This document shows positions 14,313 through 42,372 of a stretch of DNA of 64,000 nt, piece by piece (position 1 is the first letter of the stretch; each line of letters begins with the position of its first letter). The notes under the pieces were generated by a model, which saw only the letters and a program-made list of their open reading frames with translations, did not search any database and was not told the origin of the DNA. This DNA comes from Archangium primigenium (GTDB lineage Bacteria; Myxococcota; Myxococcia; Myxococcales; Myxococcaceae), in the NCBI RefSeq assembly GCF_016904885.1, contig NZ_JADWYI010000001.1, forward strand, positions 1,550,001-1,614,000. The letters run 5' to 3'. The position numbers and the translations under genes were made by a program.

Positions 14313-16301
14313 ATGGCCCTGCCCGCTTCGCTCTCCCGTCCCTCCGTCGACTCCCTGCTCGGGCCGGGCGGCGCCTTGGAGGCCGCGCTGGACGCCTACG
14401 AGTACCGGCCAGAGCAGCTGCAGATGGCGCGCGCGGTGGAGCGGGCCTTCGACGAGCACGGCTATCTGCTGGCCGAGGCGGGCACGGGCACGGGCAAGAC
14501 GCTCGCCTATCTGGTGCCCGCGCTCTTGTCGGGCCGGCGCGTGGTGGTGTCCACGGCCACCAAGACGCTGCAGGAGCAGATCTTCTTCAAGGACCTGCCG
14601 CTGTTGCGCGAGCGCATGGGGCTCCAGTTCGAGGCGGCGTACCTCAAGGGGCGCAACAACTACCTGTGCCTGCACCGCTACGACGCGTTCCAGAAGGATC
14701 CGCAGTTCGTCACGCGCGAGGAGGGCGGCTACTGGCCGCACCTGAAGGCGTGGGCGGGCAGCACGGAGACGGGGGACCGCAGCGAGCTGGCCCTGCCCGA
14801 GGCCTTCAGCGCGTGGGGCCGGCTGTCGACGACGTCGGACACGTGCCTGGGCTCCAAGTGCCCGGTGTACGAGAACTGCTTCGTGACGCGCACGCGGCGC
14901 GCGGCGGAGCAGGCGGACCTGCTGGTGGTCAACCACCACCTGTTCTTCGCGGACCTGGCGCTGCGGGGCCGGGGCAAGGGCAGCGAGGGCGTGCTGCCCG
15001 CGTACGACGCGGTCATCTTCGACGAGGCGCACGCGCTGGAGGACGCGGCGGGCAGCTACTTCGGGCACGCGGTGTCGAGCTTCCGGCTGGAGGACCTGGT
15101 GCGCGACGCGCTGGGGGCCATGGCGCCCACGGACGGGCGCTTCGGCATGTTGTCCTCGCTGGTGGTGCGGCTGCGCACGCATTCCGAGGCGCTCTTCTCC
15201 CAGGCGCCGCGGGTGCTGGGGCTCACCGAGCAGGAGGGCGCGGTGGCGCTCAAGCCCGAGCGCCTGGAGCGGCTCGCGGGGGCCATCGAGCAGGTGAAGG
15301 GGGCGCTCTCGGCGCTGTCGGCCTTCACCACGAGCGAGCGCGAGCCGGAGCTGACGCTGCTCACGCGGCGGTGCGCGGAGCTGGTGGCGGACTTCTCCTT
15401 CCTGGAGAAGGTGGAGTCCAACGATCACGTGTACTGGGCCGAGCAGCGCGGGCGGGGCGTGTTCCTCCGGGCGAGCCCCATCGAGGTGTCGCGCGAGCTG
15501 CGCGAGCGGCTGTACGGGAGCGTGGACACGGTGGTGTTCACCTCGGCGACGCTGGCGGCCGAGGGCCGCTTCGACTTCTACGCGCGGCGCCTGGGCCTGT
15601 TCGACGCGGACGGCGTGCCGGTGACGAGCGTGCGCACGGTGGCGGTGCCCAGCCCCTTCGACTTCGAGCGGCAGTCGGCGCTCTACCTGCCCACGCACCT
15701 GCCGGACCCCTCGGCCCCGGGCTTCATCGAGGCGGCGGTGGAGGAGATCCTCCGCCTGTGCGACGTGACGGGAGGCCGGGCGTTCGTGCTCTTCACCTCG
15801 CTGCGCAACATGGAGCGGGCGCACACGCTCGCGCGCCACCGGCTGCCCTACCAGGTGCTCCTGCAAGGCGAGCGGCCCAAGCAGCAGCTCCTGGAGGCCT
15901 TCCGCGAGCAGCCCAGCGTGCTGTTCGCCGCGCACAGCTTCTGGGAGGGCGTGGACGTGCCGGGCGAGGCGCTGAGCCTGGTCATCATCGACCGGCTGCC
16001 CTTCGCCTCGCCGGGAGACCCGCTGGTGGCCGCGCGCATCCGGCAGTTGGAGGCGCGGGGCGAGGAGCCCTTCGGGGGCTACCAGTTGCCCCAGGCGGCG
16101 CTGGCGCTGCGGCAGGGCTTCGGGCGGCTCATCCGCACGCGGGCGGACCGGGGCATCGTGGCCCTGCTGGACCGCAGAATCGTCACGAAGAACTACGGCC
16201 GAGCGTTCCTCGCGAGCCTGCCGCCCGCCTGGCGCACGCACGCGCCCGAGTCGCTGGAGGCGTGGTTCCTCGGCGAGCCCGTCTACGACATGGAGCCCTG
16301 A
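14313..16301 (+). CDS. dinG: DinG/XPD-type ATP-dependent DNA helicase
   Basis: The product (662 residues from the ATG at 14313; an in-frame GTG at 14277 is alternative) is a superfamily 2 helicase of the XPD/DinG group. It has a Q-motif-like YRPEQLQMARAV, Walker A AEAGTGTGKT (about residue 52-61), and the DEAH box VIFDEAHALED. The iron-sulphur cluster cysteines appear as YLC plus DTCLGSKCPVYENC between them. C-terminal helicase motifs are SFWEGVDVPG, IIDRLPFASP and QGFGRLIRTRAD. DinG unwinds forked DNA, R-loops and G-quadruplexes with 5'-3' polarity in the cytoplasm. It stands alone between divergent and convergent neighbours; its stop is 12 bases from that of pilT. No strong ribosome-binding site is visible at either start, so a leaderless mRNA is possible. 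Confidence 0.92.
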   Translation: MALPASLSRPSVDSLLGPGGALEAALDAYEYRPEQLQMARAVERAFDEHGYLLAEAGTGTGKTLAYLVPALLSGRRVVVSTATKTLQEQIFFKDLPLLRERMGLQFEAAYLKGRNNYLCLHRYDAFQKDPQFVTREEGGYWPHLKAWAGSTETGDRSELALPEAFSAWGRLSTTSDTCLGSKCPVYENCFVTRTRRAAEQADLLVVNHHLFFADLALRGRGKGSEGVLPAYDAVIFDEAHALEDAAGSYFGHAVSSFRLEDLVRDALGAMAPTDGRFGMLSSLVVRLRTHSEALFSQAPRVLGLTEQEGAVALKPERLERLAGAIEQVKGALSALSAFTTSEREPELTLLTRRCAELVADFSFLEKVESNDHVYWAEQRGRGVFLRASPIEVSRELRERLYGSVDTVVFTSATLAAEGRFDFYARRLGLFDADGVPVTSVRTVAVPSPFDFERQSALYLPTHLPDPSAPGFIEAAVEEILRLCDVTGGRAFVLFTSLRNMERAHTLARHRLPYQVLLQGERPKQQLLEAFREQPSVLFAAHSFWEGVDVPGEALSLVIIDRLPFASPGDPLVAARIRQLEARGEEPFGGYQLPQAALALRQGFGRLIRTRADRGIVALLDRRIVTKNYGRAFLASLPPAWRTHAPESLEAWFLGEPVYDMEP

Positions 16302-16313
16302 GCCTCGAGGGCC

Positions 16314-17441
16314 TCAGTGCCCGCCGCCGCCGGCCTCGGCGCCCTCGAAGGCGGTGGTGTCGAACTCGGGCTTGAGGCGCTGGATGACCTTGGCGAGCGC
16401 CTCCTTGTCCTGGGCTTTCTCCATGGCGGCCTCGGCGGTGATGGTGTTGGCGGCCACCAGGCGCTCCAGGTGCATGTCGAGCGTCTGCATGCCCAGGTTC
16501 TGGCTCGCCTGCATCTTGCTGGCGATCTGGAACACCTTGCCCTCGCGAATCATGGAGGCGATGGCGCTCGTGCCGATGAGGATCTCCAGCGCCGCCACGC
16601 GGCCCTTGCCGTCCGCGGTGCGGATGAGCTGCTGGGCGACGATGCCGGCCAGCCCTTCCGCGAGCATGCCGCGCACCTGGGGCTGCTCGTCCGCGGGGAA
16701 CGAGTTGATCATCCGGTCGATGGTGGCCGGGGCGCTGTTGGTGTGCACCGTGGCGAACACGAGCACGCCGAAGCTGGCCAGCTGGAGCGCGAGCTTCATC
16801 GTCTCGTTGGTGCGCAGCTCGCCGATGAGGATGACGTTCGGGTCCTCGCGGCCCGCCGAGCGGATGGCGGTGGCGAAGGACGAGGCGTGCATGCCCACCT
16901 CGCGGTGCGTCACCTGGCACTTGACCGACTCGTGCACGAACTCCACCGGATCCTCGATGGTGAGGATGTGCGCGGGGCGCGTGTGGTTGATGTGGTGGAT
17001 CATCCCCGCGAGCGTGGTGGACTTGCCGCTGCCCGTGGGGCCGGTGACGAGCACGAGCCCGCTGCGGCGCTCGGCGAGCTTCTTCACCACCTCGGGGGTG
17101 TTGAGGTCCGCGAGCGACAGCACCTTGCTCGGGATGGTGCGGAAGACGGCCGCGATGCCGCTCGTCTTGTAGAAGTAGTTGGCGCGAAAGCGCGCGCGCG
17201 TGCCGTAGCTGTAGGCGAAGTCGAGGTCCAGCTCCTCGGTGATGTGGCGCTTCTGCTCGGGGCTGGTGAGCTCGAAGAGCATGGCCTCCAGCTCCGCCTG
17301 GGTGAGCACCGTGTCGCGCAGGGGCGCCAGGCCCCCGCGGATGCGGCCCAGGGGCGGGTGGCCCACGCTCAGGTGCAGGTCGCTCCCCTTGGCCTCCAGG
17401 AGCTTGTCGAAGAACACGGCGATGCGGGGCGAGGCGGTCAT
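16314..17441 (-). CDS. pilT: PilT-family type IV pilus retraction ATPase
   Basis: A 375-residue protein with the full PilT pattern: an N-terminal PAS-like half containing SDLHLSVGHPPLGRIRG, Walker A GPTGSGKST (residues 134-142), the Asp box HILTIEDPVEF, Walker B VILIGELRTNET, and the His box TVHTNSAPATIDR. The C-terminus is extended by an Ala/Gly-rich tail ending in GGGGH. PilT hexamers at the inner-membrane base depolymerise type IV pili, which drives S-motility. Its ATG lies 7 bases after the stop of a second PilT-type gene, so both are cotranscribed and may form mixed or alternative motors. Myxobacteria carry several pilT paralogues, so this may not be the main retraction motor. Confidence 0.88.
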   Translation of the reverse strand: MTASPRIAVFFDKLLEAKGSDLHLSVGHPPLGRIRGGLAPLRDTVLTQAELEAMLFELTSPEQKRHITEELDLDFAYSYGTRARFRANYFYKTSGIAAVFRTIPSKVLSLADLNTPEVVKKLAERRSGLVLVTGPTGSGKSTTLAGMIHHINHTRPAHILTIEDPVEFVHESVKCQVTHREVGMHASSFATAIRSAGREDPNVILIGELRTNETMKLALQLASFGVLVFATVHTNSAPATIDRMINSFPADEQPQVRGMLAEGLAGIVAQQLIRTADGKGRVAALEILIGTSAIASMIREGKVFQIASKMQASQNLGMQTLDMHLERLVAANTITAEAAMEKAQDKEALAKVIQRLKPEFDTTAFEGAEAGGGGH

Positions 17442-17448
17442 CGGGGGC

Positions 17449-19212
17449 TCAGGCGCTCTTGCGGTTGAGGAGGTTGCCCATCTTGGACAGCAGCTGCTTG
17501 CCGGCGTCCGGCGTGGGCTCGGGCGGCGGGGCCCCCGGGCGCTTGCCCGTCACCATCATCTCCACCTCGTCGGGGCTCTCCGCGTACAGGCGCGCCGTCT
17601 CCAGGGTGGTGCGGCCCGAGCGCACCAGCTCCGCGAGCGAGTCGTCGAAGCGCACGATGCCCAGGCTCTTGCCGCGCTGCTGCAGGGAGGGAATCTGGAA
17701 CGTCTTGTTGTCGCGGATGAGGTTGCCGAGCGCCACCGAGCCGGGCAGCAGCTCCGCGGCGGCCACGAGGCTCCGGCCGTCCGTGGAGGGCATCAGCCGC
17801 TGGCTCACGATGAGGCGCAGGCTGCTGGCGAGCGTCATGCGCACCTGGGCCTGGTCGCCCGGGGGGAACAGGTCGATGAGCCGGTCGATCGTCTTGGCGG
17901 CGCTCGGCGTGTTCATGGTGCTCACCAGCAGGTGGCCCGTCTCGCTCGCGGCGAGCGCCATGCGCACCGTCTCCGTGTCGCGCAGCTCGCCCACCAGGAT
18001 GACGTCCGGATCCTCGCGCAGGCTGCCCTTGAGGGCGCTCGCGAAGCTCTTGGTGTGCGTGCCCACCTCGCGCTGGCTCAAGAGCGCCTTCTTGCGCGGG
18101 TGGAGGTACTCGACGGGGTCCTCCACGGTGAGCACGTGGTGCGTGGTGTCGCGGTTGATGATGTCCACGATGGCCGCCAGCGTGCTCGTCTTGCCGTGGC
18201 CCGAGGGGCCGGTGACGACGATGAGGCCCTGGTGGTGGTGGCACGCCTTGGCGATGTCCGCGGGCAGCCCGAGCGACTCGAGCGTGGGGATGTCGCGCGA
18301 GATGAGCCGGAAGCATCCTTTATAGCCGGTGCGCTGGCGCGAGATGTTGACGCGGAAGCGGCCGGACTCGCCCAGGTCCAGCGAGAAGTCGCAGCTGCCC
18401 TCGCGCTCGAGCACCGGCCGCAGCCGCGCGGGCACGTGGGGCAGGAGCATCTTCTCCACCATCTCGGGCAGGAGGCCCTCGCCGTGGGGCAGCAGCTCCC
18501 CCACGAGCCGGAAGAGCGGGGGCCGTCCGGCGACGATGTGCAGGTCGCTGGCGCCCACCGCCCGGGCGTCCTCCAGGAGCATGCCCAGGTTGCCCGTGGA
18601 CTCGGGCCGCACGACGAGCCGGGGCCCGGGCGGCGGCTCGGGCGCGGGCTCGGGCTCGTCGGGCAGGGGGATGGTGTCGGCGGGCGCGGGCGCGGCGGGT
18701 TTGGCCGTGGGGAGGATCTGCATGCCCGCCCGGGGCCCCTTGGCGGCGGGCGCGGCCGGCGGGGCGGGGGCGGCCGGAGCGGGGGGGGCCGGAGCGCGCG
18801 CGGCGGGCGGGGCGGCGGGCGCGCGGGCCGGAGTGGCGGCGGCGGCGGCGGCCGGAGCGCGCGCGGCGGGGGCGGGAGCCGGGGCCGGAGCGGGCGCCGG
18901 GGCCGGGACGGGCTCGTTGCGCACGATGCGCACGTTGATGACGTCCCCGCGACGCAGCGCGCCCACGATCAGCGGCCCCTGCCCCTCGAGCCGCACGGCC
19001 CACTGGCTGGGCTTGTCGGAGAGCGTGGCCACGCGGGCGTCTCCCACCAGGCCGCGCAGGGCCTCGTGCAGGGCCTCGGGGGTGATGAGCGTGTCGTCCA
19101 CGGACTCGAAGCCGCCGCCCGTCTTCACCAGGGGGGTGCGGCCACTGATGAGGGCCAGCTCCAGCACGCCCGGGCGGCTCAGGTGTCGCAACAGTTCCGT
19201 GAAGGTCTTCAT
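17449..19212 (-). CDS. PilT/PilU-type ATPase with extra N-terminal domain and Ala/Pro linker
   Basis: This 587-residue protein has three parts. Residues 1-105 form a small domain with SGRTPLVKTGGGF, resembling a degenerate copy of the PilT N-terminal domain. Residues about 105-175 are an Ala/Pro low-complexity linker. Residues about 210-560 are a PilT/PilU motor with ASDLHIVAGRPPLFRL, Walker A GPSGHGKTS near residue 335, the Asp box VLTVEDPVEYL, Walker B VILVGELRDTET and STMNTPSAAKTIDR. The last replaces the usual H-T-N His box with M-N-T, and the P-loop has GHG where PilT has GSG. These changes suggest a specialised or regulatory motor rather than a simple duplicate. It is the first gene of the pair with the pilT at 16314-17441. 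The GC-rich linker makes sequencing errors in that part possible, but the frame is intact. Confidence 0.85.
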   Translation of the reverse strand: MKTFTELLRHLSRPGVLELALISGRTPLVKTGGGFESVDDTLITPEALHEALRGLVGDARVATLSDKPSQWAVRLEGQGPLIVGALRRGDVINVRIVRNEPVPAPAPAPAPAPAPAARAPAAAAAATPARAPAAPPAARAPAPPAPAAPAPPAAPAAKGPRAGMQILPTAKPAAPAPADTIPLPDEPEPAPEPPPGPRLVVRPESTGNLGMLLEDARAVGASDLHIVAGRPPLFRLVGELLPHGEGLLPEMVEKMLLPHVPARLRPVLEREGSCDFSLDLGESGRFRVNISRQRTGYKGCFRLISRDIPTLESLGLPADIAKACHHHQGLIVVTGPSGHGKTSTLAAIVDIINRDTTHHVLTVEDPVEYLHPRKKALLSQREVGTHTKSFASALKGSLREDPDVILVGELRDTETVRMALAASETGHLLVSTMNTPSAAKTIDRLIDLFPPGDQAQVRMTLASSLRLIVSQRLMPSTDGRSLVAAAELLPGSVALGNLIRDNKTFQIPSLQQRGKSLGIVRFDDSLAELVRSGRTTLETARLYAESPDEVEMMVTGKRPGAPPPEPTPDAGKQLLSKMGNLLNRKSA

Positions 19213-19441: not shown

Positions 19442-19978
19442 TCACAGCTCACGCGACATGAGCAGGCGCAGCTTGCCGGACTTCTTGGACACCACGGTGG
19501 CCACCGTGGTGAACCCCGAGGCGCGGTAGAAGTTCACCGCCGCCGAGTTGGCGGGGTCCACGCGCAGGGCAATCGTCTTGCGGTACATGTCCTGGGCCAC
19601 CTGGATGCCCTTGGTGAGCACCGCCTTGCCGAGGCCCCGCCGGCGCAGCTCCGGCTTGATGACGATGTTGCGCATGTACGCGGCACCGGGCACCGGGCCG
19701 TCGCGCTCCACCGTCACGTACCCCACCACCTGGTTCTGCACCTTGGCCACGTGGAGGAACGGCCTGAGCCCCGTCAGGGCCTTCATGCTCTCCTCCAGCT
19801 TCTCGCCGCGGCCCAGCCACGGCTCGGAGTTGGCGCGCAGCGCGGCCACGGACGCCATGTCCTCGTCGGTCGGGGCGTTGTACTTCACCGCCAGCGACAA
19901 ATCGTTGGGCAGGTTGGCCATGTCTGGCACCGGCATCGCAGCCACCTCCACGCCCGTTTCCACCTGCTTCATCGTCAT
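19442..19978 (-). CDS. GNAT-family N-acetyltransferase
   Basis: The start at 19978 is fixed by a strong Shine-Dalgarno sequence (GGAGGAG, six bases before ATG); a second ATG at 19993 lies within it. The 178-residue product has a GNAT fold: EPWLGRGEKLEES helix, LHVAKVQNQVVGYVTVERD strand pair, and the acetyl-CoA motif A region YMRNIVIKPELRRRGLGKAV (the RRGLGKA pyrophosphate loop), followed by RVDPANSAAVNFYRASGF, the classic motif B. It transfers an acetyl group from acetyl-CoA to an amine; the substrate cannot be told. It is transcribed toward the PilT pair but separated by 229 bases, and diverges from the MglA-like gene. Confidence 0.85.
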   Translation of the reverse strand: MTMKQVETGVEVAAMPVPDMANLPNDLSLAVKYNAPTDEDMASVAALRANSEPWLGRGEKLEESMKALTGLRPFLHVAKVQNQVVGYVTVERDGPVPGAAYMRNIVIKPELRRRGLGKAVLTKGIQVAQDMYRKTIALRVDPANSAAVNFYRASGFTTVATVVSKKSGKLRLLMSREL

Positions 19979-20205: not shown

Positions 20206-20271
20206 AAAACGCCCGCATCGAGCGCGCTGGCCCTACCCTTCCCCTTCCCCCTGGCGCCCTGAGCTCCGCAC

Positions 20272-20979
20272 GTGCAACTCAACCACGCCCAGCGCGAACT
20301 CACCTTGAAGATCGTCTACTACGGGCCCGGGCTCAGTGGGAAGACGACGAACCTGCGCTGCATCCACGCGCGTGCCCGGCCGGAAGCTCGTGGCCGGTTG
20401 CTCAGCGTGGAGACGCACGAGGATCGCACCCTGTTCTTCGACCTGCTGCCGGTGTTCTTCACCAGCAGCTCCGGCTTCAAGGTGAAGCTCAAGCTCTTCA
20501 CCGTGCCCGGACAGGTCGTCCACGACGCCACGCGCCGCGTGGTGCTGCAGAACGCGGACGCGGTCGCCTTCATCGCCGACAGCCGCCGCAGCGCCGCGGC
20601 GGAGAACAACGCCTCCTGGCGGCGCCTGCGCGCCAACATGCGGGAGAATGGTCTGGATGCCTCCCAGGTGCCGGTGGTCATCCAGTTCAACAAGCGCGAC
20701 CTGCCCGACGCCCAGACGGACGAGGAGCTGGAGGCGGCGCGCCAGCGGGGCGCGGAGCCCATCCTGGGCGCGGTGGCGCTCCGGGGAGAAGGTGTGATGG
20801 AGACGCTGCACGCGCTCTTGCAGTCCGCCTGGCGCAACCTGGACGAGCGCACGCGCCTGGCGCGCAACGTGGGCCTGCGTGAACAGGAATTCCTCACCCA
20901 CATCTTCCAGCAGATGGACCTCACGGGCACCGACCTGGCGTCCCTCTACCCGCCCTCCTCCGGGGGGCAGTCCCGATGA
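20272..20979 (+). CDS. MglA-like small Ras-family GTPase
   Basis: A 235-residue GTPase starting at GTG 20272. It has the bacterial MglA-type P-loop YYGPGLSGKTTNL (GKT at residues 23-25), the switch-II motif FTVPGQVVHD (residues 76-85, PGQ in place of the DxxG of Ras), and the guanine-specificity motif NKRD (140-143). In Myxococcus the MglA switch sets cell polarity for both motility systems. This protein is about 40 residues longer than MglA, with a C-terminal tail from about residue 195, and it has no MglB-like GAP gene beside it. It overlaps the next gene by 4 bases (ATGA), so it is translationally coupled to a sensor kinase. It is probably an MglA paralogue with its own signalling partner rather than mglA itself. 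No ribosome-binding site is evident. Confidence 0.88.
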   Translation: MQLNHAQRELTLKIVYYGPGLSGKTTNLRCIHARARPEARGRLLSVETHEDRTLFFDLLPVFFTSSSGFKVKLKLFTVPGQVVHDATRRVVLQNADAVAFIADSRRSAAAENNASWRRLRANMRENGLDASQVPVVIQFNKRDLPDAQTDEELEAARQRGAEPILGAVALRGEGVMETLHALLQSAWRNLDERTRLARNVGLREQEFLTHIFQQMDLTGTDLASLYPPSSGGQSR

Positions 20980-22436
20980 GCGCCGACAAGCCGGGCGTGG
21001 TGGACGGGGGCGCCGAGCACGCGGGGCTCGCCCTGCAGCGCAAGCTGTCGCTCGTGGACCTGCTGGACCCGCTCACCTTCGGGGACGTGGTGGACAGCCT
21101 GGGCACGCTCTTCCACGTGGGCGTGCGGGTCATCGACGAGCGCGGGCGCACGCTCGCGGACACCGAGGGGCCGGGCCAGGAGCTGTGTGACGCGCTGGAC
21201 GCCACGGCCCAGGGCCGCGCGCGCCGGGGCGCCGCGGTGGAGCGGCTGGGCGAGGCCTCGTCGGGCGCGCTGGCGGCCGAGCCCTGGTCGCACCCCTGCC
21301 TGGGGGGCCTGCGCTACCTGGGCCTGCCCATCGTGTGGGACGGCGACGTGCTCGGGCGCGTGGTACTCGGGCCCTTCGTGGCCGAGGAGGCCGGCGACGC
21401 CGCCGAGGGGCTCGCCCTGGTGGAAGGCCTGGACGTGGCGCGCGCGCGCGGCTGGCTCGCGGGCGTGCGGCGCCTGTCCGAGGCGGACGTGGCGCGGGTG
21501 CGCACGCACCTCGCCCAGGTGCTCGCGGCGCTCCTGGCCGCGGGTCAGAAGTCCTACCTCACCGGCCAGCTGCACCTGGAGGCCATGCTGGAGACCCAGC
21601 GCGAGCTGGAGTCGCAGAACACGCAGCTCATCCGCCTCAACCAGCGGCTCAAGGAGTCGGACCGCAGCAAGTCCAGCTTCCTGTCCACGGTGAGCCACGA
21701 GCTGCGCACGCCCCTGGCCTCCATCATCGGCTACTCGGAGATGCTGGCCGAGGGCCTGGTGGGCGGGCTCAACCCCGAGCAGATGCAGTTCGTGCGCACC
21801 ATCATGGAGAAGGGCAACACGCTGCTCAAGCTCATCTCCTCCATCCTCGACATGAGCCAGATCGAGGCGGGCAAGGTGCGGCTCGCCTTCGAGTGGGTGG
21901 ACGTGCAGGAGCTGGTGGAGAGCGCCATCACCAGCGTGATGCCGCAGGCGCAGCGCAAGGGCCTCACGCTCCAGCAGCGCATGCCCGCGGTGGTGCAGGC
22001 GCGGGTGGTGGGGGACCGCGAGAAGCTGCGGCAGGTGGTGGTGAACCTCCTGGCCAACGCGGTGAAGTTCACCCCGGGCCAGGGCCGCATCGACGTGCGC
22101 CTGTCGGACCTGGGCCCGCGCGCGGAGCTGGGCGTCACCGGCTACGCCATCGAGGTGGAGGACACCGGCGTGGGCATCCCCGAGGGCCAGCGCGACCGCA
22201 TCTTCCAGAGCTTCTACCAGGTGGACGACAGCCCCACGCGCGAGTACGGCGGCGCGGGGCTCGGGCTCGCCATCGTGAAGAGCTACGTGGAGGGCCACGG
22301 CGGTCAGGTCTCCGTGCGCAGCGAGGTGGGCCGCGGCTCGTGCTTCCGCGTGGTGCTGCCCAAGGAGCCGCCCCTCTCCAGCCAGGGCCCGGCCTACATC
22401 CCTCCGCCCGTGGACACCGAGCCCGAGCGCTTCTGA
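20976..22436 (+). CDS. PocR-domain sensor histidine kinase
   Basis: A 486-residue cytoplasmic kinase. Residues about 22-200 resemble the PocR ligand-binding domain: LVDLLDPLTFGDVVDSLG, then VRVIDERGRTLAD and CLGGLRYLGLPIVWDG with VVLGPFV, a fold that binds small organic ligands. A short coiled coil (about 205-232, rich in Q, E, R and L) leads to the HisKA motif STVSHELRTPLASI with phospho-acceptor His241, then the ATPase N box VVNLLANAVKF, G1 VEDTGVGIP, F box FQSFYQVDDS and G2 GGAGLGLAIVKSY. No membrane segment is present, so an internal signal is expected. The gene overlaps the MglA-like GTPase by four bases, which predicts joint function. No response regulator is adjacent. Confidence 0.88.
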   Translation: MSADKPGVVDGGAEHAGLALQRKLSLVDLLDPLTFGDVVDSLGTLFHVGVRVIDERGRTLADTEGPGQELCDALDATAQGRARRGAAVERLGEASSGALAAEPWSHPCLGGLRYLGLPIVWDGDVLGRVVLGPFVAEEAGDAAEGLALVEGLDVARARGWLAGVRRLSEADVARVRTHLAQVLAALLAAGQKSYLTGQLHLEAMLETQRELESQNTQLIRLNQRLKESDRSKSSFLSTVSHELRTPLASIIGYSEMLAEGLVGGLNPEQMQFVRTIMEKGNTLLKLISSILDMSQIEAGKVRLAFEWVDVQELVESAITSVMPQAQRKGLTLQQRMPAVVQARVVGDREKLRQVVVNLLANAVKFTPGQGRIDVRLSDLGPRAELGVTGYAIEVEDTGVGIPEGQRDRIFQSFYQVDDSPTREYGGAGLGLAIVKSYVEGHGGQVSVRSEVGRGSCFRVVLPKEPPLSSQGPAYIPPPVDTEPERF

Positions 22437-22696
22437 GCGCCCCCGCGCTGCGCTCCCACCGGATCATCCCCGCCCCGCTGTAATCCCTCACAGGGGAAGA
22501 ATTCCCGTGACCGGCGAATGATGCGCTGTGTCTTGAATGGACACCGCCTCAGAGGAATTCCGCTGAACTCATAAGCCGTTCATGCAACGCTTGCCGTCCG
22601 TTGATTGAAACGGATGTCAGGCGAGGCTCGACGGACAGTGGAAGCTCGGACGCGCGCCTGGCGCCGGAGACGTGCAGTCCTCGAGTCGGAGTCGCC

Positions 22697-24553
22697 ATGA
22701 GTCACACCCCGCCGTGCCCCTCGCCTCGACTGGCCGGGTACGCGCCGCTGTCCGCCCTGGCCGTCGTGTTGTGGGCCACGGTCTCGTTCGCTCAACCCGC
22801 GGGTCTGCCCGGCTTCGAGTTGGAACGTCTGGAGTTGAATCCCAATGGCAAGGGCTCCTTGGTGGTGGGCACCGGTGAGCTGCTGCCGCCCGGAGGCTTC
22901 CGCCTGTCGCTCGCGGGCCACTACCAGCGCAACCCCCTGGTGCTCTACGCGGACGGCAATCGCGTGGGCACGCTCGTGTCGGACCGGGTCCTCGGCCACC
23001 TGCTGCTCGCCTGGACGCCGCTGACGTGGCTGGAGCTCGATGCCCACCTGCCCCTGGTGGCCTGGCAGCGCGGCGAGGACCTGTCGGGCCGGGGCTTCGG
23101 CGCGCCCGCGACCACGGGCCTCGGCACGCCCTCGGCGGCCGTGCGCGTGGGCCTGCTCGCCCAGCGGCGCCAGCAGCCCCTGGACCTGTCGCTGGAGCTG
23201 GGGGTGGGGCTGCCCCTGGGCAGCGCGGAGACGCTGTCGCGCGATGGCACCTTCCGCTTCACGCCCCGCCTGGCGCTGGGCCGGCGCTTTGGCTTCTTGC
23301 GCGCGGGCCTCGAGGTGGGCGCCCTGGTGCGGCCCGCCACCGTGCTCTACGAGGACTTCAACATCGAGGACGAGCTGGGCAACGAGGTGCGCCTGGGCGC
23401 GGTGCTCGCCACCACGAACCGGGGCCTGCGCGGCGAGCTCAACGTGCGCGGCTCCGTGCCGCTCACCGCGCAGGGCCGGTCCATGGAGGTGCTCGCCGGT
23501 CTGCGCCTGCCCGCGGGCGAGTCCGCGGAGCTCTACCTGCTGGGCGGCCCGGGGTTTGGCAACGCGCCCGGCACGCCCTTCTTCCGGGTGCTGCTCGGCG
23601 TGGCCTTTGGCGGCATGGATCCGGACACCTCGCGCCTGGATGACGATGGCGACGGCATCATCAACCGCGACGACGCGTGCCCCCAGGAGCCGGGCCTCGT
23701 GGAGCTCAAGGGCTGCCCGGTGCGTGACACGGACGGCGACGGCATCCTCGACCCCAAGGACAAGTGCCCCCTGCAGGCCGGTCCCCCCGAGACCCAGGGC
23801 TGCCCCGTGCAGGACCGGGACGGCGACGGCCTCGAGGACGACAAGGACAAGTGCCCCCTGGAGCCCGGCCCGCGCGAGCGTCAGGGCTGCCCGGTGAAGG
23901 ACACGGACGGCGACGGCATCGAGGACGACAAGGACAAGTGCCCCCGCGAGGCGGGTCCGGTGGCGCGCCAGGGCTGCCCGGTGAAGGACACGGACGGCGA
24001 CGGCGTGGTGGACGAGCGCGATGCCTGCCCGAACGAGGCGGGCCTCGTGGAGCTGCGCGGCTGCCCGGCCAAGGACACGGACGGCGACGGCGTGGAGGAC
24101 CACCTGGACAACTGCCCCACGGAGAAGGGCACCGCGGCCAACCAGGGCTGCCCGGCCAAGGAGAAGCAGTTCGTCGTCATCCAGAAGAACGAGCTGAAGA
24201 TCAAGCAGGCGGTCTTCTTCGCCACCGCCAAGGCCATCATCCGGCCGCGCTCCTACAAGCTGCTCAACCAGGTGGCGCGCGTCATCCAGCAGCACCCGGA
24301 GATCGAGAAGATCGTCGTCGAGGGCCACACGGACACCCGGGGCAAGGCGGAGACCAACCGCAAGCTGTCGCTCGCGCGGGCCGAGTCGGTGCGCAAGTAC
24401 CTCGTCAAGCGGGGCGTGGACGAGCGGCGCCTGGACGCCCAGGGCTACGGCCCGGACCGGCCCATCGCGACGAACAAGACGTCCAAGGGCCGCGCCATCA
24501 ACCGCCGCGTGGTGTTCTCCATCGTCAATTCCGACAGTCCGCAGTCGCCGTAG
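22697..24553 (+). CDS. OmpA-family outer-membrane protein with thrombospondin type 3 repeats
   Basis: I choose the ATG at 22697 (GGAG five bases upstream), which places the signal peptide first (MSHTPPCPSPRLAGYAPL, then a hydrophobic stretch ending SFAQP); the frame is open from 22601. Product 618 residues. Residues about 30-310 are rich in alternating strands and look like a beta-barrel. Residues about 314-488 hold thrombospondin type 3 calcium-binding repeats (DTDGDGIxDxKDKCP, repeated six or seven times). Residues about 492-612 are an OmpA C-terminal peptidoglycan-binding domain with VVEGHTDTRG and LSLARAESVRKYL. It anchors the outer membrane to the wall. A stop embedded in TAGGAGG provides the ribosome-binding site of the next gene, so the two form an operon. 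It resembles the general layout of TraB of outer-membrane exchange, but identity is not shown. Confidence 0.88.
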   Translation: MSHTPPCPSPRLAGYAPLSALAVVLWATVSFAQPAGLPGFELERLELNPNGKGSLVVGTGELLPPGGFRLSLAGHYQRNPLVLYADGNRVGTLVSDRVLGHLLLAWTPLTWLELDAHLPLVAWQRGEDLSGRGFGAPATTGLGTPSAAVRVGLLAQRRQQPLDLSLELGVGLPLGSAETLSRDGTFRFTPRLALGRRFGFLRAGLEVGALVRPATVLYEDFNIEDELGNEVRLGAVLATTNRGLRGELNVRGSVPLTAQGRSMEVLAGLRLPAGESAELYLLGGPGFGNAPGTPFFRVLLGVAFGGMDPDTSRLDDDGDGIINRDDACPQEPGLVELKGCPVRDTDGDGILDPKDKCPLQAGPPETQGCPVQDRDGDGLEDDKDKCPLEPGPRERQGCPVKDTDGDGIEDDKDKCPREAGPVARQGCPVKDTDGDGVVDERDACPNEAGLVELRGCPAKDTDGDGVEDHLDNCPTEKGTAANQGCPAKEKQFVVIQKNELKIKQAVFFATAKAIIRPRSYKLLNQVARVIQQHPEIEKIVVEGHTDTRGKAETNRKLSLARAESVRKYLVKRGVDERRLDAQGYGPDRPIATNKTSKGRAINRRVVFSIVNSDSPQSP

Positions 24554-24565
24554 GAGGCACGGGTC

Positions 24566-26596
24566 ATGAGCAACGCATTCACGACGAAATGGCTGGCCAC
24601 CGCCCTGGGGGTGATGGCCCTGGGCGGGCTCGAGGCCCGGGCGGAGCCGGACACCTTCGGGGTGGGCTCGGGCCGCAGCGGGCCGCTCGCGGTGACCACG
24701 GCCAACACCGTCATCAACGCCTACGCGCCCGTGACGGCGGCCCTGGCGCGCAACGCCACGGCCATCTCCGTGGGCACGTGCGTGGGCGACCCCTGCTTCG
24801 CGGACGGGGACCTCGTCCTCGTCTACCAGGCGACGGGCCTCGTGCCCGCGCCCGAGTCGGGCAAGGAGGACCCCATCGACCTGACCGGCAGCGCCGCGGG
24901 CCGCTGGGAGTTGGCGCGCCTCAAGTCGGTGTCGCCCGCGGCCGCCCCCACGCGGCTGGAGCTGGCCGCGCCGCTCGTGAATGCCTTCGCGGCCAACGTC
25001 ACCCAGGTCATCCGGGTGCCGGAGTACACCTCCGTGAGCATTCCCGCGGGGCGCAGCCTCACGGCCTCCGCCTGGAATGGCAGCACGGGCGGCGTCGTCG
25101 CCTTCCTGGCCCAGAACGAGGTGAACAACCAGGGCACCATCACCGTGGACAGCCAGGGTTTCCGAGGCGGCCAGTTCTCCGCGGGAGACGGGGCCCGGGG
25201 ATGCTCCGAACTGGACGAGCCGGCCCCTGGCGGCGCCCAGAAGGGCGAGGGACTGGGCGGGCCCGCGCGCTATGGCGCGGCCTTCGCCGGGCGCGGCAAC
25301 GTGGCCAATGGCGCGGGCGGCGCGGTGTGCTACCGCTCTGGAGGCGGGGGCGGCGGCAATGGTGGCGCGGGCGGACACGGCGGCCGCTCGGATGGCGCGT
25401 TGGACCCGGGATCCACGCCCGGCGCGGGTCGGGACGTGGGGGGCCTGGGCGGCACCGCGCTCCGCATCCCGGCGCTGACCCACTTCACCTTCGGCGGCGG
25501 CGGCGGCGCGGGTCATGGCCTCTCGTCGGTGGGCCCGGCGGGCTCGGGGGGCGGCATCGTCTTCTTCCGCGCCAACCAGCTCTCGGGCGCGGGCTCCATC
25601 ACCGCCTTGGGCGGGGCCGTGGGCACCTTCCCCGAGGGCGGCAGCGGGGGCGGGGCCGGCGGCTCCATCCACGCGCGCATCGTCCGGTCCGCCGTCTGCG
25701 GCGCGGTCTACGCCAACGGCGGCATCGGCGGCACCTCGTCCTCCGCGCGGGTGGGTCCGGGCGGCGGCGGCGGCGGCGGTCAGGTGCTGTTCCAGGCGGC
25801 CCCGGGAGGCGCCTGCGCGCTCCTGGCCACGGGCGCCAACGCCGGCACGCAGCAGGTCCCGGCGGATGGGTCCTACGGGGCGATCTCGGGCTCCATCAAC
25901 ACGCCCGCCGAGAAGAAGTACGGCTTCATCATTCCCGCGCCTCCCACGGTGGCCACGCCGGCCAAGAACCTCATCACCAACAATGTCCGGCCCCGCATCA
26001 CCGGCACGGCGCGCATCTACGCGGAGGCCGCGCCCAACACCGAGGTCATCGTCTTCCTGGATGGCGTGGAAATCGGCCGGGTGATGTCCGATGCGACGGG
26101 CGCGTATGCGCTCGACATGCCCCGGGACCTCGACGAGCGCGAGCACCGCGTGGAGGCCGCCATCGTGGTGGACGCCGCGCAGAGCCTCAACGGCTCGCCC
26201 AACACCTTCCTCGTGGACATCACGCCCCCGAAGACCACCATCTCCGGCCCCAACGGCGCCATCCGCGAGCGCGACCCGAAGTTCGAGTTCGGCGCGAGCG
26301 AGGACGTCGTGGCCTACACGTGCAGCCTGGACGGCGCGGCCTTCACGCCCTGTCCGGCCGATGGCGTCTTCCCGGGGCTCGGGGACGGCGCGCACTCGCT
26401 CCAGGTGCGCTCCGAGGACCGCGCCGGCAACGTGGGCCAGCCCACCACCCAGAACTTCCGGGTCACCGTGGAGGACCTCGCGCTGTTCGGCGATGGCGTC
26501 GGGTGCTCGGCCACGGGCCGTGACGGCTCGCTGCTCGTGCTCTCGCTGGGCGCGCTCGTCCTGGGCCTGCGCCGTCGCGGCGGATCCGCGCGCTGA
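24566..26596 (+). CDS. Gly-rich surface protein with Ig-like segments and MYXO-CTERM tail (AgmC-like)
   Basis: A 676-residue exported protein with a signal peptide (MSNAFTTKWLATALGVMAL, cleaved near EARAEP). Residues about 210-400 are extremely Gly-rich (GGGGGGNGGAGGHGG and similar), as in bacterial surface proteins of the adhesin and AgmC type. Residues about 455-640 form two beta-sandwich segments, the second with TFLVDITPPKTTISG and CSLDGAAFTPCP, as in Ig-like repeats. The C-terminus GVGCSATGRDGSLLVLSLG, then LRRRG, is a MYXO-CTERM-like sorting signal: Cys, hydrophobic helix, Arg cluster. Such tails are processed and direct proteins to the cell surface in myxobacteria. It follows the OmpA gene by 12 bases. 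AgmC is associated with adventurous gliding in Myxococcus; that role here is an inference from resemblance. Confidence 0.8.
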   Translation: MSNAFTTKWLATALGVMALGGLEARAEPDTFGVGSGRSGPLAVTTANTVINAYAPVTAALARNATAISVGTCVGDPCFADGDLVLVYQATGLVPAPESGKEDPIDLTGSAAGRWELARLKSVSPAAAPTRLELAAPLVNAFAANVTQVIRVPEYTSVSIPAGRSLTASAWNGSTGGVVAFLAQNEVNNQGTITVDSQGFRGGQFSAGDGARGCSELDEPAPGGAQKGEGLGGPARYGAAFAGRGNVANGAGGAVCYRSGGGGGGNGGAGGHGGRSDGALDPGSTPGAGRDVGGLGGTALRIPALTHFTFGGGGGAGHGLSSVGPAGSGGGIVFFRANQLSGAGSITALGGAVGTFPEGGSGGGAGGSIHARIVRSAVCGAVYANGGIGGTSSSARVGPGGGGGGGQVLFQAAPGGACALLATGANAGTQQVPADGSYGAISGSINTPAEKKYGFIIPAPPTVATPAKNLITNNVRPRITGTARIYAEAAPNTEVIVFLDGVEIGRVMSDATGAYALDMPRDLDEREHRVEAAIVVDAAQSLNGSPNTFLVDITPPKTTISGPNGAIRERDPKFEFGASEDVVAYTCSLDGAAFTPCPADGVFPGLGDGAHSLQVRSEDRAGNVGQPTTQNFRVTVEDLALFGDGVGCSATGRDGSLLVLSLGALVLGLRRRGGSAR

Positions 26597-26598
26597 GC

Positions 26599-27159
26599 AT
26601 GCGGCCGGCGACGCCCGCGGATGCCGCCGTCGTCGTGCGCCTCATGTGCACGGCGATCGGCGACATCGCGCACACCCTGTCCGGCACCCGGGACAAGGCC
26701 GAGACCCTGCGGGTGCTCGAGGCCTTCTTCACCCAGCCGGGCAACCGCGTGAGCCACGAGCACGTGTCGGTGCTTGAAGAGGACGGGCGGGTAGTCGGCT
26801 TCTTGTCGGCCTACCATGGCGCGGACATCCCCCGGCTGGACCAGCCCTTCATCGATCGGCTGCTCGCGCGGGGGCAGGATCCGAGCGGCGTCGTGCCCGA
26901 GGCCCGGGCGGACGAGTACTATCTGGATTCGCTCGCCGTGGACGCGCGTTATCAAGGGCGAGGCCTCGGCTCCTTCCTGCTCGATGCCTTTGAACGAAAG
27001 GCCCGGGCCCTGGGCCACCCGAAGTTGCTCTTGTTGGTGGACCAGGAGAACACGAAGGCCCGGCGGCTGTACGAGCGGAGGGACTACCGCGCGGATGGCG
27101 CGTTGGTCCTCGGCGGCCATGTGTTCGATCGGATGGTCAAGGATGGCCTGGGGGCTTGA
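26599..27159 (+). CDS. GNAT-family N-acetyltransferase
   Basis: A 186-residue protein whose ATG begins 2 bases after the stop of the MYXO-CTERM gene, so it probably belongs to the same transcript. It has the GNAT order: MRPATPADAAVVVRLM at the N-terminus, VGFLSAYHG strand, YYLDSLAVDARYQGRGLGSF (motif A with the RGLG acetyl-CoA loop), LLLVDQENTKARRLYERRDY (motif B). The pattern resembles small-molecule or peptide acetyltransferases; the substrate is unknown. Confidence 0.85.
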   Translation: MRPATPADAAVVVRLMCTAIGDIAHTLSGTRDKAETLRVLEAFFTQPGNRVSHEHVSVLEEDGRVVGFLSAYHGADIPRLDQPFIDRLLARGQDPSGVVPEARADEYYLDSLAVDARYQGRGLGSFLLDAFERKARALGHPKLLLLVDQENTKARRLYERRDYRADGALVLGGHVFDRMVKDGLGA

Positions 27160-27279
27160 AATCAAGGAAAATAGGCGGTTAACACGGAGGGGCCCATCCC
27201 GAGCCTTCATCCACGCCCGGTCCTCCATCCGGGATGAGCGAGGTTTTCCCCGTTCGAATCGACCCGTCCAGACGCGCGC

Positions 27280-28515
27280 ATGACTCCTTCCTCTCCGCCC
27301 CTCGCGGTTCCCGCCGACACCCGGACCGACGACGTCCCGCCCGACGAGCTCGAGGCGGCCTTGCGGCGTGAGGGGGCGGCGCGTCTGGCCGCGGAGCAGG
27401 CCCTGGGTCGCGAGTACGCGGCACGCACCGAGCGTGAGGCGAACCTGCTGGCGACGCTCGCCGCCGCGCGCATGGGCACCTGGCGCATGGACGCGTACAC
27501 CGGCCAGGTGACGTGGGACGCCGCGCTCAACGAATTGCTGGGGCTGCCGGCGGTGTCCGGCTCGGGGCCCACGCCCGGGTGGCGCCGGTGGGTGCACCCC
27601 GAGGACGAGGGCCGGGTCGACGCCGAGCTGCGGCGGGCCCTGCGCGAGGCGAGCGGCTTCTCGCTGGACTACCGGATCGTCCGGCCCGACGGCGGGGTGC
27701 GCTGGATGCGCGACCGGGGCGGCGTGCTGTTCGGCGAGGATGGCACCCCGCGCTACCTCACGGGCGTGGCCTCGGACATCTCCGCCGACAAGCAGGCCGA
27801 GCAGGACGCCCTGGTCCACGCGGACCTGGATCAGCGGCTCATCGGCATCGTCTCGCACGACCTGCGCAATCCCCTGAGCGCCATCATCATGGGGGCGCAC
27901 ATGCTGATGCACCGGGTGAAGGAGGACGCCAAGTCCCGCCAGGTGGTGACGCACCTGCTGTCGAGCGCCGAGCGCTGCCATCGCATGGTGCGCGACCTGC
28001 TCGACTACACCCAGGCGGAGCTCGGCGGGGGCATCCGCATCGAGTCCCGGCCGCTCGACTTCCACGCGCTCGTCGCGCAGGCGGTCCAGGAGGTGCGCCT
28101 GAGCTTCGGTCCGGACCGCGACTTCCACGTCCGGCACGAGGGGGACGCCACCGGCGAGTGGGACGCGGATCGCCTCACCCAGGTCATCACCAACCTGGTG
28201 TGCAACGCGGTGAACTACAGCCCCGAGAACACCCCCATCGAGGTCACCTCCTCGGGGGACGACACGCACGTGGTCTTCTCGGTGCGCAACCAGGGCGAGC
28301 CCATTCCCCTGGAGCTGCGCACCCGCATCTTCGAGCCCATGACGCGGGGGCTCTCCCGCGGCGCCCAGGTCAGCCGGGGCGTGGGGCTGGGGCTGTACAT
28401 CGTCAAGCACCTGGTGGACGCGCACGAGGGCCGCGTGGACGTGGAGTCCTCCGAGGCCCAGGGCACGTGCTTCTCCATCCGGCTGCCGCGTCAGCGCACC
28501 GCGCGGCGGCCGTGA
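27280..28515 (+). CDS. PAS-domain sensor histidine kinase
   Basis: A 411-residue cytoplasmic kinase from the ATG at 27280. Residues about 20-58 are charged and probably a coiled coil. Residues 62-170 form a PAS/PAC module (ARMGTWRMDAYTGQVTWDAA, WVHPEDEGRV, FSLDYRIVRPDGGVRWM). HisKA follows with IGIVSHDLRNPLSAI, phospho-acceptor His193, then the N box VITNLVCNAVNYSP, and a G2 box GVGLGLYIVKHLVDAHEG. The G1 box is diverged (SVRNQGEPIP where D-x-G-x-G is usual), but that is common in this group. There is no transmembrane segment. It converges on a CotH-type gene with 13 bases between stops and has no response regulator beside it. The 120-base leader contains a CATCCCG/CGGGATG inverted repeat. 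Confidence 0.88.
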   Translation: MTPSSPPLAVPADTRTDDVPPDELEAALRREGAARLAAEQALGREYAARTEREANLLATLAAARMGTWRMDAYTGQVTWDAALNELLGLPAVSGSGPTPGWRRWVHPEDEGRVDAELRRALREASGFSLDYRIVRPDGGVRWMRDRGGVLFGEDGTPRYLTGVASDISADKQAEQDALVHADLDQRLIGIVSHDLRNPLSAIIMGAHMLMHRVKEDAKSRQVVTHLLSSAERCHRMVRDLLDYTQAELGGGIRIESRPLDFHALVAQAVQEVRLSFGPDRDFHVRHEGDATGEWDADRLTQVITNLVCNAVNYSPENTPIEVTSSGDDTHVVFSVRNQGEPIPLELRTRIFEPMTRGLSRGAQVSRGVGLGLYIVKHLVDAHEGRVDVESSEAQGTCFSIRLPRQRTARRP

Positions 28516-28528
28516 GGGCGCCGAGGGC

Positions 28529-30376
28529 TCAGGGGCCCGTCTGCACGCCGAAGTGCTCGGTCCCCCGGGGCGTGCGGCCGTAGGCCTCGCCCGGAGCCAG
28601 GGGCGCGAGCCACAGCAGATCCAGCGCCACCATCCCGTCGGCCGCGTACAGCGAGAGCTCGGGGGCCTTGGGATCCAGGAGGGCGCCCAGGTGCTCGGGG
28701 CCCACGGCGTCCTGGTGGAACGTCACCACCTCGCCCGGGGCGAGCATGCGCGCGGGCAGGGTCCACTGGCCGGGCACGCGGGTGAATCCGGAGAGCTGCA
28801 GGCCGCCCAATTCCTGGGGCTGGGTGCTCCGGTTGTAGAGCTGCACCCAGAAGGTGCCCGAGGCGTCGCGGCCCACGCGGTCGATGACGAGCGCGGTGTT
28901 GCCGTGCTGCTCCAGGTCGCGCAGGTGCTCCAGCAGCCAGGCGCGGCGCTCGCGCACGTAGCGGCGCAGGTACTCGACGCTGCGCGCGACGTGGTCCCGG
29001 CTGACGTAGGGATCCTTCGTGTGGCCGGAGGCGTCCGGGGTGATGAAGGGCGCGAGCAGGGCGTGCTGGGCCTCCACGCGCTTGCCGATGTTCTCCTCGG
29101 TGAACCACGTGTCCAGGAGCTGGCGCAGTCGGGCGGCGTAGCGCGCGCGCAGCGTGGGGTCATCGTAGATGCGCGTGGAGAGCGTGCTCCAGCCGGGCTT
29201 CATGTCCTCCATGCCGGGGAACTGACGGCGCTCGGCGGCGAGCACGTACACGCGCGGATCGTAGGGCGTGAAGCTGAAGAGCGGGTGGGCCCGCTTGACG
29301 CCCTGGATGACGGGGTTGGTGCGGTTGTAGAGCGAGAGGGCGTTGTTCAGGTCCCACGGCACGAACGTCCACTTCTGGGTCGCGCGGTCGTAGACGAGGT
29401 AGCTCCGGGTGTCGCCCTGGAGATCCTGGGCGATGAGCGTCTCCATGGCGAGCCAGGTGAGGTAGTCGTCCAGCTCCAGCGTGCGCTCGAGCAGGGCGGG
29501 CAGCGCGTGCGGCGGCGTCTTCTGCAACTCCTCGAGGAACGCCCACAGCTCGGTCCAGGGCTGGGTCTCGTTCGTCTTCTTGTCCCAGGGCTCCTGGTAC
29601 TCCTCCTGGGGCGGCGGGCGCAGCTCCCCGTCGTGCATGCCGGCGCGGTACAGGTCGCTGTCCGCGTCGAACCCGTGGGCCTTGAGGAAGTCCTTGTTCA
29701 CGGACTCCAGCTCCGTGAACACGCCCTCGTAGCGGGTGATGACGGTGCCGTCGGGCTGCCGCAGGTGGAGCTTCACGTGGGCATAGCGGGCCGTGGACGC
29801 GCGCAGGCCGAGGCTCGCCGCCATGTCGAACCACAGCTTCTCGGTGAGGTATCCGCTGTCCTTCCACGTGGCGAGCAACTCGATGTTCTTCTTGCCCTCG
29901 AAGCGGTCCGCCTTGTCGAACTTCACGTCCCAGGACTTCTTCACGATGCGCGGGTCCGTCTTGGTGGACCGCCCGCGGAAGCTCAGCTCCGCCGTGTACT
30001 CGCGGCCCTCGCGGATGAAGCGTCCCTTCACGCTGAAGTCCTTGGACGGTGGATCGTGGATGTGCGCGTGAAGGGCGTCGTAGTCCGCTTGGCTCAGGTT
30101 CAGCTCATAGACGGGTAAGGTGGTCTGCAGGGCGGGCCAGCGGGGAGATTCGGGCGTGGGCCGGGGCTCGGGCGGCGTGACCGGATTGGACGGCAGTTCC
30201 TCCTGCTGGGGACCGGAGGGCGGCCGGGTCTCGTCCGGGCCGCGGGGCGGCGTGCCGGGCGTGCCCGGGGCCACGTCGCTGACGCCCGGGGCCGGAAAGC
30301 GGGGCTCCGACTGCCCCGTGGGACCACCGCACGCGCTCGTCAGCAACATCAGTCCAGCCAGAAGTGGGATTCGCAT
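28529..30376 (-). CDS. CotH-family lipoprotein with C-terminal beta domain
   Basis: A 615-residue lipoprotein from the ATG at 30376 (GAGGGA eight bases upstream). Lipobox LLTSACG is near residue 16, followed by a Pro/Gly-rich spacer to about residue 85. Residues about 86-450 form a CotH domain: LPVYELNLSQADYDALHAH, AELSFRGRSTKTDPRIVKKS, KSWDVKFDK, NIELLATWKDS, VFTELESVNKDFL, and YLVYDRATQKWTFVPWDLNN, where the usual D-x-D/Q motif appears as DLNN. Residues about 485-615 resemble a lamin-tail-like beta domain (VIDRVGRDASGTFWVQLYN, LGGLQLSG, GEVVTFHQDA). Family members include secreted protein kinases. It is the second CotH protein in the window and shares only short motifs with the one at 3167-4915, so they are not recent duplicates. 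Confidence 0.82.
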   Translation of the reverse strand: MRIPLLAGLMLLTSACGGPTGQSEPRFPAPGVSDVAPGTPGTPPRGPDETRPPSGPQQEELPSNPVTPPEPRPTPESPRWPALQTTLPVYELNLSQADYDALHAHIHDPPSKDFSVKGRFIREGREYTAELSFRGRSTKTDPRIVKKSWDVKFDKADRFEGKKNIELLATWKDSGYLTEKLWFDMAASLGLRASTARYAHVKLHLRQPDGTVITRYEGVFTELESVNKDFLKAHGFDADSDLYRAGMHDGELRPPPQEEYQEPWDKKTNETQPWTELWAFLEELQKTPPHALPALLERTLELDDYLTWLAMETLIAQDLQGDTRSYLVYDRATQKWTFVPWDLNNALSLYNRTNPVIQGVKRAHPLFSFTPYDPRVYVLAAERRQFPGMEDMKPGWSTLSTRIYDDPTLRARYAARLRQLLDTWFTEENIGKRVEAQHALLAPFITPDASGHTKDPYVSRDHVARSVEYLRRYVRERRAWLLEHLRDLEQHGNTALVIDRVGRDASGTFWVQLYNRSTQPQELGGLQLSGFTRVPGQWTLPARMLAPGEVVTFHQDAVGPEHLGALLDPKAPELSLYAADGMVALDLLWLAPLAPGEAYGRTPRGTEHFGVQTGP

Positions 30377-30607
30377 GGCGGGAATCCCTCAGCAAGCAGC
30401 GCGCCAGGGCGGACTCCTTGTCCAGCAGGGGCATCGGGCTCGTTTCACGGGGAGGCGTGGGAAAACAATTCGCCCTCCCGGACAGTGGGATGCCCAAGCA
30501 GTTCACCCCCATGCCCAGGGGGCCGTGGCATCCTCGCCGGGAAGTGCCCCGCGCCCCGGGCGATGTCTCCTCCGAGACACCCGCCCCGGGCCCCAGCCGG
30601 AGGGCTC

Positions 30608-33970: not shown

Positions 33971-34021
33971 GGCCCGTCAGGGATTTTCCATGCGGCTGCA
34001 CTTGCTGATAGAAAGTGGAAC

Positions 34022-34447: not shown

Positions 34448-34519
34448 GTAGCTGTCCGAAATGTGCGGGTGGTAGTGTCCGCGGCCCTTTCGGGGCCTTC
34501 TGCGGAGGCGGAGCTTCAC

Positions 34520-34888: not shown

Positions 34889-34922
34889 GGGTCCGCTCCA
34901 GCACGCGCGGCGGAGGCCGGGC

Positions 34923-39932: not shown

Positions 39933-40000
39933 AGTCCTCGCAGTCTTCCACCAGCAGGCCTGTGGGCACCCCGCGTCACGCCCACGGAGGGAGAGCCTGA

Positions 40001-41095: not shown

Positions 41096-41132
41096 GCCCC
41101 CTTCGTTTGATTCCAACCCCAGGATCCCCGAC

Positions 41133-42362: not shown

Positions 42363-42372
42363 GAGGCACCGC

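Follow-up and report, generated by a model that had tools for sequence, protein, structure and literature searches.

A SofG-type GTPase gene and a PocR-domain histidine kinase gene stay together across Myxococcota and may form a signalling module of the pilus/Dif pathway

A 64,000-nucleotide stretch of the Archangium primigenium genome was analysed as a whole (hereafter the window). It carries a gene for a SofG-type small Ras-like GTPase of the MglA family (20272-20979, stop codon included, + strand) and, directly downstream, a gene for a PocR-sensor histidine kinase (20976-22436, + strand). With moderate confidence, we read the pair as a GTPase of the SofG type and a kinase dedicated to it, which would make up a two-gene signalling module of Myxococcota in the pilus/Dif pathway. 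Since the two genes stay together in related genomes, often beside Dif genes, the kinase appears to be a good candidate for the missing regulator of SofG.

The GTPase gene, called from its ORF, motifs, and tree position, has a GTG start and encodes 235 amino acids; the kinase gene has an ATG start and encodes 486. By their ORF coordinates, the two genes share the tetranucleotide ATGA at 20976-20979 (+ strand), which confirmed the start/stop overlap described in the first-pass annotation, with both ORFs present. Of 52 distinct loci, 42 have a start codon placed exactly at -4 from the GTPase end whose reading frame runs for 150 codons or more (ATG in 28, GTG in 13, and TTG in 1); the loci L049, L067, L071, L072, L074, and L076 were excluded from this count since their genomes had already been counted. 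The overlap suggests that the translation of the GTPase and the kinase is coupled.

The GTPase product matched the Arf family of Pfam (E = 2.1e-5, over the cut-off) and was 47% identical to the MglA of its own genome across residues 3-184. Its nucleotide-binding motifs, as aligned with MglA, were the P-loop GPGLSGKT, DRTLFFD, TVPGQ, and NKRD. In 37 GTPase sequences, the P-loop residues G18, P19, S22, G23, K24, and T25 were invariant, as were R52, G80, Q81, N140, K141, and D143. The G motifs are intact together with the Arg and Gln of MglA, as is expected of a SofG protein. Three MglA-family GTPases were found in the genome, namely the 235-aa protein of 20272-20979, the 195-aa MglA encoded beside mglB, and a 381-aa form. 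When paralogues and outgroups were included in a tree, the 14 sequences of the SofG type fell into one clade (support 1.0), which was separate from both MglA and the 381-aa form. The first-pass annotation had proposed an MglA-like polarity GTPase; the family assignment stands, but by tree and locus the protein is a SofG-type orphan and not MglA. The identification as MglA was rejected, since the protein lies outside the MglA clade and mglB is not adjacent. A genome-wide search with the Robl_LC7 (MglB) profile gave a single match at E<=0.001 (C1:7980268), located directly before the true mglA (C1:7980726) and 6.4 Mb along the contig from the GTPase. There was no MglB within four genes of the GTPase in this search, in keeping with the earlier remark that no MglB partner is nearby.

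The orthologue in a Myxococcus genome (G025), whose MglA is identical to the M. xanthus MglA in the PDB at 194 of 195 residues, has 239 aa when counted from the start matching that of the window protein, and its gene adjoins a GNAT gene and two PilT-like genes; the paralogues have lengths of 195 and 373-381 aa, as against the 235 aa (window) and 239 aa (G025) of the SofG type. The locus comparison covered the window and G025, in both of which a GNAT gene adjoins the GTPase gene, and for M. xanthus we take sofG to be MXAN_6703, with the kinase gene after it as the presumed MXAN_6702. In passages of the literature, MXAN_6704 is given as a GNAT (PMC4048283), DifE and DifD as MXAN_6692 and MXAN_6693 (PMC9040617), SofG as an orphan of 239 aa, and MglA as a protein of 195 aa (PMC4316618). 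Since the GTPase has its own clade, a 239-aa orthologue in G025, orphan status, and a GNAT/PilT-like locus, and since DifE is MXAN_6692, we called it SofG; the orthology to SofG of M. xanthus itself is inferred from size, orphan status, and locus. The two proteins are alike in length, in being orphans, in their MglA-family motifs (with the Arg of DRTLFFD), in having a C-terminal extension, and probably in having a GNAT neighbour, and no difference was seen; the passages on SofG that we consulted name no partner kinase.

Two observations on the family are recorded here. The third MglA-family GTPase (L070, G000:C1:3890253-3890810, and its counterpart L075) carries a C-terminal extension of roughly 190 residues (381 aa in total here, 373 aa in G025) and fell outside both the SofG type and MglA in the tree. 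In addition, two small genomes (2.1-2.3 Mb) of family f1 contain one stop codon each in the matched SofG stretch (G156:C27:11170-11856 and G157:C231:1484-2164), which may represent the end of the gene, decay, or an assembly error.

The conservation of the pair was surveyed in 195 Myxococcota genomes. A SofG-type GTPase was found in 166 genomes when a best E of <=1e-75 was used as the cut-off (our own choice; the remaining matching genomes stop at 9e-67), and the kinase sensor profile matched in 167. Both genes were absent from 27 genomes, of which 13 are at least 90% complete and several are very small, and one genome (G051) showed a weak kinase match and no SofG-type GTPase. Among the matches listed, the kinase lay directly downstream of the GTPase on the same strand in all 135 of 135 pairs; this count is based on 150 kinase matches, 135 of them with a listed GTPase match, and on GTPase matches down to an E of 2.6e-101, and 15 kinase matches and 15 GTPase matches without a listed counterpart stand outside it. 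Adjacency was also found separately in G016, G017, G031, G041, G022, G068, G071, G072, G076, G080, G165, G166, and G192; the kinase next door has a diverged PocR half in G072, the GTPase next door is a poor match in G080, and both pairs are adjacent. No similar kinase was present within 1.2 kb downstream of 12 other MglA-family GTPase loci (L037-L048), or of the mglA and 381-aa loci in the window genome (G000) and G025. By this linkage, the kinase is a steady partner of the SofG-type GTPase, and the conservation in myxobacteria that the first-pass annotation had suggested checking was borne out. A mirror-tree comparison of GTPase and kinase over 40 loci (r = 0.85, 26 of 37 splits common, one supported conflict) fits common descent; it was run with no control and carries little weight. 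Adjacency of a pair can also persist under vertical descent without any contact between the proteins.

The earlier suggestion that the GTPase bears a C-terminal tail was upheld. The tail (aa 191-235; 20842-20976, + strand) contains helices at aa 196-200 and 204-213 and a low-confidence end at aa 227-235 in an AF2 model made from a 16-sequence alignment (mean pLDDT 82.2), of which MglA structures were the best fold match. In 37 sequences, F207 (97%), L196 (95%), and L208 (92%) were conserved, and residues 216-235 were more variable than the earlier part of the tail. From the model and the alignment, the tail is predicted to be a conserved helical element of the SofG-type clade. The ATGA overlap and a conserved tail specific to the clade would both suit the proposal that an MglA polarity GTPase is phosphorylated on its tail by the kinase. 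However, the best kept tail residues were the hydrophobic helix positions L196, F207, L208, and F212, no invariant His or Asp was found within residues 191-221 of the 37 sequences, the GTPase lies outside the MglA clade, and the normal phosphorylation targets of HisKA kinases are Asp residues of receivers. We consider tail phosphorylation very improbable.

The kinase matched PocR (E = 1.9e-13), HisKA (1.1e-20), and HATPase_c (3.3e-31) of Pfam, all over the curated cut-offs, and has no receiver domain. The PocR sensory domain (PF10114) covers aa 28-187 (21057-21536, + strand), the HisKA domain lies at 21669-21872 (+ strand) with the predicted phosphoacceptor H241 at 21696-21698, and the HATPase_c domain lies at 22011-22367 (+ strand); H, N, and G boxes were visible by eye. 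The kinase has no membrane-like segment, and its top 19-residue hydropathy was 1.2, compared to 2.2 in the DifA-like receptor of the window; it is thus predicted to be soluble. H241 was kept in all 34 aligned kinases. The PocR half was less conserved than the kinase core. It holds Cys at positions 71 (34/34), 84 (33/34), and 108 (34/34) of the aligned kinases, and the window kinase alone has an Arg at position 84. The only other PocR match in the genome (L077), an NtrC-type regulator/activator by eye, has a similar Cys pattern; therefore, the Cys triad is probably common to PocR domains in general. For the first 225 kinase residues, which include the PocR part, no relative was found in the PDB by sequence at E<=5. 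A structure model of the kinase was made from five sequences (the window and four loci) and was of low confidence (mean pLDDT 63.6, pTM 0.39), and its use was therefore restricted to the kinase core, leaving aside the PocR pocket and the Cys residues; its best structural match was HK853 with the receiver RR468. The first-pass annotation had credited PocR domains with the binding of small metabolites. Such binding is put forward in the literature as a prediction (Anantharaman and Aravind 2005, as cited in passages of PMC1592074 and PMC9768040), so the idea is kept in a weaker form than stated; signalling from a metabolite via the kinase to the GTPase is possible. PocR is also borne by histidine kinases of putative two-component systems at propanediol loci, according to passages of PMC4207490; those loci are catabolic microcompartment loci, whereas the partner here is a small GTPase.

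In the window, the pair is surrounded by genes that provide a context for it, namely two PilT-like genes (16314-19212) and a Dif-type operon (32717-37579). Upstream lies a helicase gene (14313-16301, + strand), whose product we take to be DinG-like from its domains; such a gene adjoins the pair on the upstream side in several families. It is followed by two PilT-like ATPase genes with T2SSE domains (16314-17441 and 17449-19212, both - strand) and by the divergent neighbour of the GTPase, a GNAT acetyltransferase gene (19442-19978, - strand). The start of the GNAT gene is probably at 19978 (178 aa) rather than at 20218; in the more distant relatives the alignment begins only at about aa 74-82 of the longer ORF, and the protein has 178 aa in L049. 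Downstream, about 9 kb (22437-31575) separate the kinase from the thiL-dif genes. This interval encodes an OmpA/TSP3 protein, a Gly-rich surface-type protein, a PAS histidine kinase, and an ATP-grasp-type enzyme, as well as, by eye, a second GNAT and a large lipoprotein. It is followed by a gene with AIRS and AIRS_C domains (31576-32541, + strand), the product of which is presumably ThiL-like. A Dif-type gene set lies at 32717-37579 on the + strand, with a DifA-like chemoreceptor (MCP; HAMP and MCPsignal domains, 32717-33970), a DifC-like CheW (34022-34447), a DifD-like CheY (34463-34888; 96% identical in G025 over residues 15-140), a DifE-like CheA (34923-36986), and a DifG-like CheC (36983-37579), the protein names being those used in passages of PMC4671073. 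The assignment of this chemosensory operon to Dif rather than to another Che system rests on the gene set and the locus and not on a tree. Further downstream, an alpha-amylase-like protein and a sugar ABC transporter were seen by eye at 38400-45293, and the 680-aa permease of this region has an unusually long N-terminal part.

The neighbourhood of the pair was then compared in a sample of 20 families. The recurrent order was DinG-like (or Lon), sofG, kinase, (receiver), ThiL-like, difA, difC, difD, difE, and difG, and many families miss parts of it. Two or more dif-like genes were found downstream in six of the 20 families (f1, f5, f6, f10, f11, and f15), and a seventh, f14, showed a chemoreceptor only, where the contig ends. 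Dif-like genes were present in 9 of 10 genomes of f1, in 7 of the 7 genomes of f5 with enough contig, and in one genome of f6, the other having no room. In 13 of the 20 families, the roughly 6-18 kb covered downstream yielded no dif gene set, lone matches to a DifD-like receiver aside. The kinase is followed by a ThiL-like gene in 11 of the 20 families, with a start/stop overlap in L108 and L116. The thiL- and difA-like genes came directly after the kinase in a genome of the same genus (G002), in G010, and in an Archangium locus (L033). A receiver gene lay directly 3' of the kinase in five loci (L062, L113, L114, L115, and L117). No receiver orthologue stood out in the window genome, since a profile of four of these adjacent receivers (L115 being left out) matched 110 places at E<=1e-15; the best matches scored 103.5, 99.8, and 97.5 bits, and many lay within long frames. 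The pair probably belonged to the Dif (pilus/exopolysaccharide) gene neighbourhood early on.

A passage of PMC2330069 reports an 'mglA' within the dif cluster of Anaeromyxobacter dehalogenans 2CP-C and no such proximity in M. xanthus. Since a SofG-type GTPase, the kinase, and dif genes occur together in all seven of the f5 genomes mentioned above, and since we guess that f5 holds Anaeromyxobacter, the gene named mglA there is probably of the same SofG type. As against the lack of mglA-dif proximity reported for M. xanthus in that passage, the Myxococcus genome G025 has a looser spacing, in which about 7 kb with other genes lie between the kinase and the downstream thiL-difA genes.

The pair could also be a bystander operon, in which the genes are co-transcribed for historical reasons, work in separate pathways, and the kinase belongs to an ordinary two-component system that senses a metabolite. 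The other recurrent neighbours (DinG-, Lon-, and ThiL-like) do look housekeeping, and such clusters can stay stable for a long time. However, these neighbours, the receiver, and dif vary between families, whereas the GTPase and the kinase stay adjacent in every pair among the matches listed, and the 27 genomes without both genes further speak against it. We therefore regard the bystander explanation as unlikely.

The pilus and Dif genes were compared in 51 genomes, 28 without the pair (including G051) and 23 with it; since these genomes were chosen by us and are related, no statistic was drawn. Strong PilM_2 matches (E<=1e-55) were found in 15 of the 28 genomes without the pair versus 22 of the 23 with it, and DifD (E<=1e-25) in 9 of 28 versus 21 of 23. 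At E<=0.001, PilM_2 matched in 27 of the 28 genomes without the pair; such weak matches say little, because the profile also matches control genomes, e.g., B. subtilis and Lactococcus. These counts do not support a strict co-loss of the pair with pili or Dif. Neither pili nor Dif needs the module, because genomes without the pair often keep PilM and some keep DifD. This speaks against the proposed module, as do the 13 families in which no dif gene set was found, the lack of an outstanding receiver orthologue in the window genome, the lower conservation of the PocR half, and the Cys lost from it in the window kinase.

Among known systems, the Streptomyces conservon (CvnA kinase, CvnB roadblock, CvnC, and CvnD GTPase) likewise encodes a histidine kinase together with an MglA-family GTPase, according to passages of PMC4316618. 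Unlike the conservon described there, the window pair has no roadblock gene, its kinase has a PocR domain and no membrane segment, and its GTPase belongs to the MglA/SofG group rather than to the actinobacterial one and is encoded first. With no roadblock near and no membrane kinase, the pair is not a conservon. The MglA-MglB-RomR/RomX module has the GTPase family in common with the pair; unlike it, the window has no MglB nearby, a GTPase of a different clade, and a dedicated kinase in the operon. Our search of the open-access literature returned no paper on the kinase or on the GTPase-kinase pair.

In M. xanthus, SofG localises subpolarly together with the bactofilin BacP and helps place the motors PilB and PilT (passages of PMC5703909 and PMC4316618). 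Signalling by PilB takes place upstream of Dif (passages of PMC5544727), and DifE works via EpsW on EPS synthesis (passages of PMC12802240). A soluble kinase that is tied to SofG and frequently encoded near dif would suit the role of an internal sensor in a SofG/PilB/Dif branch. In the module that we propose, the PocR domain is probably a sensor of a small intracellular ligand or of the redox state. The kinase would then autophosphorylate on H241 and pass the phosphate to a stand-alone receiver, which is next door in some families and would be encoded elsewhere in the window genome, and the receiver, or the kinase itself, would set the activity of SofG. The direction from kinase to receiver to SofG is modelled on the response regulator RomR, which together with RomX is the GEF for MglA (passage of PMC11016934). 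The match of the low-confidence kinase model to HK853 with its receiver, and the adjacent receiver genes of some families, are in keeping with such a scheme.

The reverse direction, in which SofG-GTP switches the kinase, is nearly as likely. In a tentative alternative of this kind, GTP-bound SofG would bind the kinase, which as an effector would report the state of the pilus motor to the receiver and perhaps to the Dif/EPS branch. It is favoured by the GTPase gene coming first in all 135 pairs among the matches listed, by the dif neighbourhood in a part of the families, and, in passages of the literature, by the signalling from PilB to Dif (PMC5544727) and by the kinase/GTPase/roadblock interactions of the Streptomyces conservon, which depend on kinase and GTPase activity (PMC4316618); however, it leaves the PocR sensor unexplained.

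The regulation of SofG is at issue in the literature. MglB does not aid GTP hydrolysis by SofG and no cognate GAP is known according to a passage of PMC4316618, which conflicts with a passage of PMC11016934 in which MglB acts as the GAP of SofG; the input signals of exopolysaccharide control are said to be unknown in a passage of PMC12802240. A bolder form of the proposed module, which is doubtful as a whole, would make the kinase the missing regulator of SofG; the kinase would sense a metabolite or the redox state, set the nucleotide state of SofG via a single-domain receiver and without a dedicated roadblock GAP, and couple the placement of the pilus motor to Dif-driven exopolysaccharide across Myxococcota. 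The partner gene, conserved across the phylum, provides one gene to delete and test, and the sofG-dif neighbourhood in a part of the families could link the placement of pilus motors genetically to the control of exopolysaccharide.
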